Part shown: in pieces, positions 59,583 to 64,000 of the stretch
Numbering within the stretch: the first letter of the stretch is position 1
Layout of the letters: each line of letters begins with the position of its first letter
Source of the DNA: Beverwykella pulmonaria
Taxonomy: Eukaryota > Ascomycota > Dothideomycetes > Pleosporales > Melanommataceae
Assembly (NCBI GenBank): GCA_001599595.1
Contig: BCHH01000004.1
Coordinates: forward strand, 2,134,452-2,198,451
Direction of reading: 5' to 3'
Length of the DNA: 64,000 nucleotides
Made by a program: the position numbers and the translations under genes
Notes under the pieces: model-generated
What the model saw: the letters and a program-made list of their open reading frames with translations, nothing else
Database searches by the model: none
Told to the model about the DNA's origin: nothing

Positions 59583-60559
59583 GTTTACGCTGGAGAAAGG
59601 AAGCTTGGATGAAAGGAGGCTACTGAGTTTGTATGGGAAAGTGGAGGTTTATTAATGTGTTTGGTTATACATTGAAGGATTGGAGATGTGATGTGGCCGT
59701 GGTGTGATATCATGTCGTCGTTCCCGAGAGCTCCTCCGAGGACGCATGCCGAGATGCAGCTGCATCGGTACCCCACTTTGGCACGACGGCCGCTGATGTG
59801 ATGGCTTCTCAAGACGGATCTGAAATGGTAGCATGCGATATCTTCAAGTCTGCGATTCGTCAATTATTCAGCGAACTGTCGTGGTTCATGATAGAGTGGC
59901 TTTCTGGTACTCAGACCATGCCAGAAAGCGTAAGCGGCGAGATCAATGGTGGATCTGCGAACGAGTGGGGATTGGACGGGCTGGACTTCAACTCAACTAC
60001 CCTCATCCATCGTGACCTCTTCATCGCCAGCCCATTTGTTCTTCTACCCTGCATCGTTGTATCATTGGGATCTGTGGGAGTTCTTCTTTGATCGACGACC
60101 TAAGTGGATATCTAGATATCTTTAGATAAACTGCCCCTCTCCATCCGTCATTCATTCGCCCTCTCCGTTTCATACTTGGTCTTTGCGATACCAAAATTTG
60201 CGTATGACGATTGCATGTTCACACCTGTAGCCTTGAAGCTATTCTAGCTTCTCTCGAAAGACTCATCTCGCCCACGGTCGATCGTAGTACAAATTAGTAC
60301 CAATCAACGCTTTTGGCAAGTGCTTTGAGAGCAGTCGTCAAACTGAACGCCTTTCAATTGTGCACGGAACAATTCACTGAGCTCTCACGCACTTGACAAG
60401 TGAAGTGTAGTATAGAGTAGCAACTCAACCACCTCTGTCACGCAAATAGGCTTGGAGGTAGCAAGTATGATTTTCTTCAAATCTAGTCGCTCAACTATGC
60501 TCCTTCAGTGGCGCAGTGACTTTTACGGAAAGCGGATATGAGCAAACCGGCAACAATTC
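59583..60559. other. intergenic, no gene seen
   Basis: Promoter of the SnoaL-like gene plus non-coding DNA. A plus-strand frame at 59798-60091 has no motif. GC content then falls abruptly at about 60560. Confidence 0.4.
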
Positions 60560-61098
60560 AAGCGAGGAAAATCAAAACTCAAAACTCAAAACGCACAATG
60601 CAAAATCAACAAATACATGCACACCTAAAAATTATTTCAATAATTAAATCATATTAAGTATAAATCAAGTAGACAATTAAAACATAAATAATAATGCTCC
60701 AACACTTGTACACTAAACTTAAAAGAACTAATACTGTGGCTAATACCGTGTCAAATAGACCACATGTTTGTAAATAAGTTTGACAATATGGAGCGAGGTT
60801 TAAAGCTAGAATATCTTATGGTGTCCTTGCATTTGTAATGTTTAAAAGTAAGTAGACCATTATATTTAGACTATGAAAAACTGTAAGTAGTGCTGAATCA
60901 ACCAATTCCTCAGCTCTACCTGTCTAATACCTGCCTAATGCCTGTCCCCAAAGTCAGAAACTAGAACTAGTTGTATACTTAGATATCTCCTCGCAGACAC
61001 TGATATATAGCCCAATACTTACTAACACCTATATTGCTAGTTGAGGATTGCGCCTTATTTATCTACTAATGATGCTTTGAGCGGTGATTGTGGATGAT

Positions 61099-61756
61099 CT
61101 AGACATAGTCGCCAAGAATATTAGCAATCTAGAAAGCATGTTGGAAGTCCTTCTGCTGGATGGTAACCTGCTTGGTGTGAATAGCAGACAAGTTGCAAGC
61201 TAAAGTTATTAGAACAATACTAGATTAATACTGAAGATGATATTAGCATACCTGTCAAGCATGTAGTTATAAATGCCTCAGCTGCCTCTTGCAAAGTAGT
61301 AAGTGCATTTAATTGGAACTGTTTAATAAGTTTTTCGCCTTTAGTATTTTGGAAATCCTCTAGAATTTCACAAACAAGGCAAATAAATTAGGTTTTTGGG
61401 ATAAGAGTGCTAATACATTACTAGTAGTGTTAGATCTCACAGAGAGCAGAGCCTAATACTAGTATTAGTCAAAAATTTAGATGATACTATACATAGAACT
61501 TACAACCAGGCCTTGCTTTCACCTTCTTAGGTCTACTAGTGGTAGCTCCACAGTAGACAGGCGCTTTGACAGCATTCTTATTATACAAAATGTTCTTGCG
61601 TTTAGCAGGCTTTTTAGGTGCAGACTTGCGCGGTGATTTGGTAGCAATCTTCCTGCTGAAGGCTAAAACAGCTATTAGCAAATAGCTAATACTAGTACTA
61701 ATACTAAGATTACTAGTTGCTCCAAGTGGGCGATTGGGAGGGCGAGTTCTTGCCAT
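61099..61756 (-). pseudogene. histone H3-family relic (H3/CenH3-like), RIP-damaged
   Basis: A degenerate H3-type histone gene. The N-terminus reads MARTRPPNRPLG and, after a 51-nt intron-like insert, FSRKIATKSPRKSAP, close to the H3 tail PRKQLATKAARKSAP. A Lys-rich stretch follows, then RPG at the start of the core. In the core I can read an AL-EI remnant with stops, then STLIPK, LVCEILEDFQN, LNALTTLQEAAEAF and, after another intron-like insert, LSAIHTKQVTIQQKDFQ followed by a stop and IANI. These match the H3 core blocks (KLPF..LVREI, AL.ALQEA.EA, L.AIHAKRVTI..KDIQLARRI). At least four in-frame TAA/TAG codons sit where Gln or Arg is expected, and Arg-to-Cys changes fit C-to-T mutation. The extended, altered tail suggests an H3 variant or CenH3 rather than canonical H3; that part is inference. 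Confidence 0.72.
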
Positions 61757-63539
61757 GATAGTGTAGATATAATAGACGGTAATAGTAATTCAGTTGCAAT
61801 GAACAGGAGTTGACAATTAACGCAAAAAGTAAGTGGTAGAGGAAGAAGGTTGGTTGCTGAAGAGAAGATATAAAGGTTTCAGAATAGTAAAAAGTTAGGT
61901 AGGTGAAGGTGAAGGTGAAGGTGAGATAACAGGTGAAGGTAGAAAAAAATGCGAGAAATTCTTAACTAATACCTAGTCTAATACTATTAGTCCTAATTCT
62001 CCGCTCATTGCAAAGCAAAGCCAATTGTAATAAAGCCAGAAAAAACAAAATCTAACAATTAGTTAGAGATTACAAACTAAGAATATATTCCAAAGCTACT
62101 CACTTGCATAAAGACTAATACCCAGCCTAATACTTGTATTATTAGCAGATTCTAACTGGCAACGTCACGCGGTTTTAGAGAGGTCTTAATAATAGCTAGA
62201 AGTTAAGTTTTGGTAATAAAGCGCAAAGCACTTTCTCTGTTTGCCTTTTACTTAAAATTTTGCTAGGGTAAATTATTAAGTTAGCTTCACACAAACACAC
62301 TAAAACTCCATAACACCTGCACTTAATTCAACCTGGCCACAATTACTAGCTAATTAGCATAATACTCAACTAATACTTGCCAATACCACACGCGTGCATT
62401 ATAACTAATCAAAAATAGAAGAAACAAGCCAGCAAATACTCTACAAATCCAAATACCATCAAAAACAATGCCATTCGCGCAAAGAAAACTAGTGAAGACT
62501 TCTTAGTTATAAGGGGAAAAAACGCTAATAACACAGTAAGACCCACAGCAGAATAGCTAATACTTAGACTAATGCTGTAAAGGCGTCTTTAAAGCTATAG
62601 AAGAACAAGTTCAAGCCGCGTATCCAACATCTACTAGATGCAGAATCCAACAAATTAAAACGCAACTAGCTAGAGAAGGACCTAAGGGATTAGTGCAAGA
62701 ATGCAGCCCTTAATACTAGGTATAAGATAAGTATTAGGTTAGTATTAGGCAGAGCTAACAGTATACAGGGCGAAGCAAAACTTGCTCTAGACTTAGCAAG
62801 CAATAGCGCGCACTGGCAACCCTAAATCTCATTACCTATCCCTAGACACTCTGTTTAAAGCACAGACGCGTGTCTGGCTTCTTAACAATAAGTTTATGCC
62901 GCCCTAGCATATTATTGATAGCGCAACGGCTACTATTGCTGTCAGCTCTCTACCAAGCAGTTAAGAGGAAGATAGCGTCTAAAAAAGCACTAGAAACACA
63001 AACTAGGACCAAGATGAACAAGACTTACGCACAGAGAAGGAGTTGTGGGCCAACCTTAGATACTAGCTGTCTATTAAGCAATACTAGAACAGCCAGCTTA
63101 ATATAGTAGTTTGGAAATTAAGTGTTATACGCACTTAAGGCTTAAGGGCATTTCTACTGCGCATAACACTTGACCAACTTAAGGCAAGTAAATTCTAGAT
63201 AGCCTAATACTAAGACTAATACTTAGCAGGAATATATAAACTGGCTTAACCTAAATATCCTGTCTATAGTAGTTGAAATGCTTAGCAAGCTCAAGCAGCG
63301 CTTTAAACAGGTACGTTGAGCATTTGTCTAGGTATTGGGCCATTGCTAACAATTCCTAGATTGTAGCCGTCCAAAAAGCATATAAAAAGACACAAGTTGC
63401 GTATAAGAACGATATCGCGATTGACAGCAACTTAGGTGTACCAATACTGCTATTCTTAATGCTATTTACTAGTCCTGAGCGCGTCCTACTATCTCTACTC
63501 TACTAAGCTTAACGTGGCGGAACATTCTAGGGTTCTAAG
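61757..63539. other. RIP-degraded sequence without an identified gene
   Basis: Contains only short open stretches, for example a ~50-codon plus-strand run at about 62589-62740 and one at 62870-63106. No family could be named. Confidence 0.4.
61902..61925. repeat. (GGTGAA)x4 hexamer run
   Basis: Four direct copies of GGTGAA/GGTGAG, followed by a fifth partial copy at 61932. Located in the upstream region of the H3-like relic. Confidence 0.9.
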
Positions 63540-63983
63540 TTCAAGCTTTTTGACAACAATTAGCCGTCTAAACTTCCTAGTGTCTATAAACTACAGACTA
63601 TTAAGGACTACAGAAGGGACTTTCCACTTACAGCTATTAACATAACTAGGGCTGCAGACCTGCTAGACAATATTGTTAAGCTATTGCCAAAAGAGAACAA
63701 TGAGTTAGACGAAATAGCTAAAAACAAACCTGCCGTGGAAGATGATTAAATAGAAGGAGTTTTGGAGGATAAAGATGCTATAGATGTTAATCTAATAGAA
63801 GCTAGGGAAGACGATTAGGATATAGAGATGCCCAACATTGATGAATTCCTAAATTTGGGGTTACTCTGGCAAGATAATAAGAGGCAGAGCAGTATGTATG
63901 CTATAGATGACGTGGAGAACGTATTAGATAATGAATGGGAGTCTTAGGGTGAGGAGACCCAAGCGCCTAAGCAGCTGAACTAA
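63540..63983 (+). pseudogene. acidic protein remnant with TAG/TAA interruptions
   Basis: One frame reads as protein for about 147 codons but contains four stops, all TAG or TAA. Legible stretches are SVYKLQTIKDYRRDFPLT, TRAADLLDNIVKLLPKENNE, MPNIDEFLNLGLLWQDN and DDVENVLDNEWES, ending APKQLN-stop. Restoring Gln at each stop by single C-to-T reversal is what RIP would require. The protein would be acidic and the family is not recognised; it may be the C-terminal part of a repeat-encoded protein. Confidence 0.5.
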
Positions 63984-64000
63984 AGGTATTAGGTGGTATT

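Follow-up and report, generated by a model that had tools for sequence, protein, structure and literature searches.

The 64,000-nucleotide stretch analysed here, referred to as the window, corresponds to C4:2134452-2198451 of a genome comprising 45.6 Mb in 31 contigs. According to the window profile, GC content is about 0.52 before 60 kb and 0.37–0.40 beyond. Within the AT-rich part, a histone H3-like gene with in-frame stops, designated H3-A, extends on the minus strand from 61756 to approximately 61063. The H3 blocks named in the original prediction are present on this strand and in order; one concern was that they might lie in incompatible frames, and the frames do differ, but three GT-AG introns, each with a CTAAT branch-like site, connect them. 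In the predicted splice model, made by eye and by homology from the sequence, exon 1 (61714..61756, with an ATG start at 61756) is followed by intron 1 (61663..61713, 51 bp), exon 2 (61504..61662, the remainder of an altered tail), intron 2 (61453..61503, 51 bp), exon 3 (61252..61452), intron 3 (61200..61251, 52 bp) and exon 4 (61063..61199). The histone fold begins at the start of exon 3, which ends at LQEAAEAF, and exon 4 reads SAIHTKQVTIQQKD..., with an approximate end, the true stop being uncertain owing to mutations. Introns 2 and 3 are both in phase 1 and fall at the codons aligned with H3 T45 and D106, respectively.

The spliced read, with X at the stops, scored 54.5 bits against the histone profile PF00125 (cut-off 26.4 bits; E = 1.8e-14; residues 23–158), which bears out the assignment to the H3 family. 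Recognition depends on the splice model, since two unspliced pieces of the gene matched 0 Pfam families each and a six-frame scan of the genome with PF00125 returned 14 matches, the H3-A locus not among them. In a second genomic copy of H3-A on contig C16, two stretches reached singly only 13.8 and 14.1 bits, below the cut-off. The in-frame stops lie at residues 75, 78, 79, 89, 158 and 168 (first Met = 1), and every one is TAA or TAG; the first three align with R52, Q55 and K56 of the host H3. A protein search with H3-A gave 4 matches among 21 candidates, including P0003, a hypothetical protein of Pseudogymnoascus destructans that is possibly, judging by its sequence, a divergent H3 of comparable kind. 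When six transposon H3 reads were used together as a search profile, 7982 of the 7990 scored candidates passed, and the best 120, mostly long plant and animal H3, contained no usable relative.

The longer, altered tail that had been anticipated is evident: H3-A begins with MARTRPPNRPLG and has no canonical ARTKQTARKS tail. It is without K4 and K9 contexts and keeps a K27-like RKSAP motif (HKSAP in the C16 copy). The suggestion that the gene might be a CenH3 copy did not hold. The W of the loop-1 RW motif is a hallmark of CenH3, and at this site F is found instead in H3-A as well as in the two other transposon-associated types described below, H3-B and a hAT-borne H3. Loop 1 is longer in H3-A than in H3, which can also be the case in CenH3. 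The core of H3-A is 44% identical to the host H3 and 40% to the host CenH3, with no special likeness to the latter, and when a joint transposon-H3 profile (A2) was compared with solved structures, the best 60 of 175 chains were H3 types, one of them an H3.1/CENP-A chimera. A CenH3 copy is ruled out by the core comparison, the loop-1 F and the ordinary H3 character of the best structures.

We interpret the AT-rich island as one copy of an IS3EU-type DNA transposon with the structure and fate proposed here, at a probability of roughly 0.85, which gives substance to the earlier idea of a gene carried by a mobile element. The part inside the window spans 60524..64000 and continues beyond the window end; the whole C4 copy occupies C4:2194975-2207488 (12,514 bp including a nested insertion). 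A genome-wide paralogue search with the H3-A DNA recovered the second copy at 94% identity, and region alignment placed the corresponding element, inverted relative to C4, at C16:813496-825319. The left terminal inverted repeat (TIR; 60524..60612, plus strand, 89 bp) starts with TACGG and is identical to the reverse complement of the right end, and the 6-bp target site duplication (TSD) GACTTT at 60518..60523 has its twin after the right end at C4:2207489. Both copies have the perfect 89-bp TIR TACGG..CCGTA and a 6-bp TSD, GACTTT on C4 and CTTAGA on C16; in the latter, an extra copy of a 19-bp part of the terminus stands outside one end, and CTTAGA sits beyond it. These features agree with the available descriptions of IS3EU elements, namely TIRs of more than 30 bp with TAYGG..CCRTA ends and TSDs of 6 bp (PMC12730594), or TA..TA termini and usually 6-bp TSDs (PMC10045372).

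A gene with such clear homology to H3 might instead be a copy of the host H3 or CenH3, made by segmental duplication or retroduplication, that sits in a repeat by chance and is not cargo. We consider this extremely improbable: matched termini and TSDs enclose H3-A in both copies, the second copy with a TSD of its own contradicts the duplicate reading, and the introns, tail and loop 1 are unlike those of the host H3 and CenH3. A plain duplicate of the host H3 is ruled out by the termini, the target duplications and the introns.

At the right end of the element, outside the window, lies a decayed transposase match (C4:2206318-2207283, minus strand). Its read, with X at stops, had a sole match among 3070 candidates, P0005 (E = 5.9e-76; 43% identity over 57% of the query), the domains of which are Clr5 and the integrase core rva_4 (73.5 bits for rva_4). 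The element's own read stayed below the Pfam cut-offs, with 18.7 bits for rva_4 (cut-off 26) and 19.3 bits for HTH_21 (cut-off 28.1); the putative DDE integrase-type transposase is assigned through P0005. Of its three presumed catalytic acids, two are replaced in both copies, by N and K. A 338-aa open reading frame with no stops, related to the IS3EU-type transposase, was also observed at C10:103120-104076; no terminus match to the element family and no H3 match was found near it.

A hAT carrier for H3-A has precedent: hAT is named in the available text of both papers that assign a transposon-borne H3 to a type of carrier (PMC3538342, PMC6710886), and an H3-bearing hAT element exists in the same genome. 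We give this reading only a marginal chance: the TSDs are 6 bp rather than 8 bp in both copies, the ends are TACGG, the transposase matches a Clr5 and rva_4 integrase protein, and 0 of the 81 hAT dimerisation matches fall inside either copy, the nearest lying at C16:834983, 9.7 kb past the C16 copy. The 6-bp TSD and the transposase match rule out hAT as the carrier of H3-A, and we retain the IS3EU-type assignment.

Termini of this family occur elsewhere in the genome. A search with the first 301 bases of the element produced 34 matches, four at the ends of the two copies and 30 elsewhere. Among the latter are four pairs that face each other at distances of 0.8 to 1.9 kb and look like short non-autonomous relatives. 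At C1:4803745, a divergent end matches the left end over about 300 positions at 71–72%, and the H3 searches of the genome listed no match there.

The IS3EU-type element also holds a second H3-like gene, H3-B, located outside the window 6 kb from H3-A (C4:2202442-2203251, plus strand); an H3 search of the genome placed its counterpart at C16:817733-818542. The C4 version of H3-B reads as 221 residues, about 120 of which form the tail, and contains four in-frame stops. Its C16 counterpart keeps the third-intron donor GTAAGT, with a change after it. H3-B starts with MALTKQ and contains ARKTP, and may, as far as these motifs indicate, retain K4- and K9-like sites. A tail stretch around APVY is common to H3-A and H3-B. 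A further decayed, possibly coding stretch runs on the plus strand from 62573 to 64000 and past the window end; the C16-copy sequence between H3-A and H3-B, including the counterpart of this stretch, had no credible Pfam match except histone. Two insertions were observed in the element. The C4 copy contains, outside the window, a 1.1-kb insertion at a TA site with inverted ends ACATCGG..CCGATG (C4:2201035-2202156), which probably postdates most of the mutation described below, because it is less AT-rich than its surroundings and missing from the C16 copy. A solo-LTR-like insertion (TGTAACG..CGTTACA) with the 5-bp duplication CGTGT lies at C16:823028-823447, and a similar sequence occurs on C2.

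The H3 search of the genome additionally identified broken H3-like genes of a different family at C2:23187-23707, C8:194276-194796, C16:75349-75869 and C4:1791188-1791705. The carrier of this family ends in TAGGCTGGCGAATGGG. In the H3-bearing copy C4:1790611-1831286, TAGGCTGGCGAATGGG stands at both ends, facing, and each end is flanked externally by the identical 8 bp CTTATTAA; the H3-like gene lies near one end and a hAT dimerisation domain (C4:1830495-1830737) near the other. With this 8-bp TSD, terminus and dimerisation domain, the second H3 carrier is a hAT element. An 8-bp TSD was found in two of the three end pairs examined: a short member nested in the same copy (C4:1824002-1825550) has TCTAGGAC on either side, and the pair at C1:498718-500264 has no matching TSD. 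For the C2, C8 and C16 copies the far end was either masked or could not be located, and a dimerisation domain near the terminus at C2:4720180 falls outside that end and was not counted as evidence. The read of the hAT-borne H3 keeps ARTK and KAPRK and is without K9 and K27 contexts. The C4 copy spans 40.7 kb and is unusually long or heavily nested; it must hold nested insertions, of which at least one, the short member named above, was identified. Scattered single N bases occur within the C8 copy (C8:189600-199500) and may reflect a collapsed repeat in the assembly.

The alignment of the two IS3EU-type copies revealed 492 differences over 11,389 sites: 247 C/T, 243 A/G and 2 transversions. 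The 490 transitions fall mostly in CpA context (324), followed by CpG (85), CpC (6) and CpT (6), with 69 ambiguous, and the TpA/ApT ratio is 1.51 and 1.59 in the copies versus 0.59 and 0.88 in the C4 flanks. Judging by this mutation spectrum, the differences between the copies would be the product of RIP and almost nothing else; this upholds the RIP damage that had been proposed. Since almost all differences are of RIP type, the copies were near-identical at the onset of mutation and their spread was recent. The hAT copies follow the same trend in a less pure form, with 71 transitions and 5 transversions between C2 and C16, and 58 and 5 between C2 and C8. The intact relatives that the original prediction envisaged elsewhere in the genome did not appear, as no transposon-borne H3 copy among those found is intact.

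Intron positions link the transposon H3 genes. Two introns, at the T45- and D106-aligned codons and both in phase 1, are common to H3-A, H3-B and the hAT-borne H3. The host H3 gene (C8:263751-264092) has, by sequence reading, introns at codons 8 and 120, and the host CenH3 gene (C11:474223-474592) has one intron, at neither site. The comparison sets the transposon H3 genes against these two host genes and does not show the sites to be rare among fungal H3 genes, for which 31 intron sites have been reported (PMC3029354, in the part available). Because the two sites are shared and missing from the host H3 and CenH3, we argue that the transposon H3 genes descend from a common ancestor, and somewhat favour a single transposon-associated H3 lineage that would have passed between superfamilies.

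An alternative is that IS3EU and hAT elements each took up a chromosomal H3 by chance, through independent passive transduplication with no function for the transposon. Chance capture is the published view for hAT elements of Pseudocercospora fijiensis, as far as that account is available (PMC6710886), and the protein tree also counts in its favour. In this tree of 18 rows, 3 of the 15 inner branches are well supported, and each of these unites no more than two copies of the same type; H3-A and the hAT-borne H3 group at 74/90 with H3-B elsewhere, so the three transposon types are not united with support. The hAT-borne H3 (C2 copy) is also closer in its core to the host H3 (60%) than to H3-A (47%) or H3-B (41%). 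Rapid change in the transposon H3 genes could be the reason for this pattern. Against independent capture stand the two introns at the same codon and phase in all three types, missing from the host H3 and CenH3; these shared introns disfavour separate captures from the present host genes, and donors in other fungi with these introns could still have supplied them. On balance we find independent capture the less convincing account, though one with some chance of being correct, and lean towards the single lineage.

A scheme for the IS3EU-type element, a cut-and-paste DNA transposon, can be proposed on this basis. The DDE transposase encoded at the right end would have recognised the 89-bp TIRs and inserted the element with 6-bp TSDs. 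The cargo consists of two divergent intron-containing H3-like genes, H3-A and H3-B, neither of them copied from the H3 or CenH3 genes that the host now has. After the element had reached two copies, RIP would have mutated both, wrecking the H3-like and transposase genes. The altered H3 might have been placed into chromatin and weakened the silencing of the element; for H3-A and the hAT version, which have no clear H3K9 context, we infer such a role only tentatively and think it rather unlikely. Its model is the TET/JBP genes of fungal transposons, and H3-B would suit such a role less well. Combining these ideas, the genes may belong to a dedicated, transposon-adapted H3 lineage older than its present carriers, moved between IS3EU and hAT like TET/JBP in rust fungi and serving as an anti-silencing device: H3 without the normal sequence around K9 (and, for the hAT version, also without that around K27) would be deposited in chromatin at the element, where it would prevent the heterochromatin mark, and a division of tail and placement functions would account for the two versions in the IS3EU element. 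We regard this full combination as speculative and doubtful.

Histone H3 in fungal transposons has precedents, so the notion of an undescribed repeat-borne histone family does not stand as a whole. Available accounts report H3L, an H3-like gene of Pyrenophora tritici-repentis carried by a hAT transposon, in 2013 (PMC3538342); H3 within hAT elements in P. fijiensis and five of its relatives in 2019, one or two per element and called an intronless retrocopy (PMC6710886); and R25, a deRIPed H3-containing repeat of Stagonospora nodorum, in 2010 (PMC3017866). Like H3-A, H3L has an altered tail with an insert, lies between DNA-transposon TIRs and is neither H3 nor CenH3; it is described, however, as one gene per hAT element in 26 nearly identical copies with mostly open frames (PMC3538342), whereas the element here is IS3EU with two different H3-like genes each, every found copy broken. 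The P. fijiensis elements likewise contain one or two H3-like sequences and show CpA-biased RIP beside a single intact host H3, but are reported to have a 20-bp TIR, an 8-bp TSD and hundreds of copies (PMC6710886), in contrast to an 89-bp TIR, a 6-bp TSD, two copies and retained introns. R25 is also a RIP-degraded repeat, with weak similarity to H3 and to a DNA transposon (TDD4) after deRIP; it was filed as an endogenous gene region, and the comparison with our element is by description only (PMC3017866, as available).

On the side of the carrier, a 2012 meeting report mentions "Intons", IS3EU-derived fungal transposons with five to six proteins, as well as transposons of different superfamilies with host-derived proteins (PMC3520738). 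The element here is similarly an IS3EU-derived fungal DNA transposon with several genes and, by description only, may be an Inton; that account, in its accessible part, names no histone and gives no sequence, and the name was found in no other paper of the partial literature searched. The TET/JBP transposons of rust fungi, both IS3EU and hAT, resemble our elements in their IS3EU termini and TSD and in chromatin-related cargo across several superfamilies in one host group, with a DNA dioxygenase as cargo in place of the histone (PMC12730594, in the part available). Styx of Zymoseptoria has been linked to IS3EU, without histone cargo in the available accounts (PMC10853768, PMC9970103). No tie between IS3EU and a histone gene was found in the partial literature searched. 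As far as this search extends, H3 in an IS3EU carrier, as a pair of intron-bearing genes, is new; H3 in hAT elements of Dothideomycetes and multi-gene fungal IS3EU derivatives, announced in 2012, are already known from these sources.

Histones are usually regarded as host property. That H3 is also carried by a transposon superfamily unrelated to hAT, in the form of two different genes whose introns recur in the hAT version, lowers the likelihood of chance capture and prompts one to ask whether transposons deploy their own histones against silencing. Two unrelated carriers in one genome suggest that altered histones may be useful cargo for mobile elements. The intron-bearing copies also call into question the retrocopy account of published transposon-H3 cases. 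A 16-residue insertion described in the second P. fijiensis H3 copy (PMC6710886, in the part available) corresponds to 48 nt, about as long as a short intron, and could represent one.
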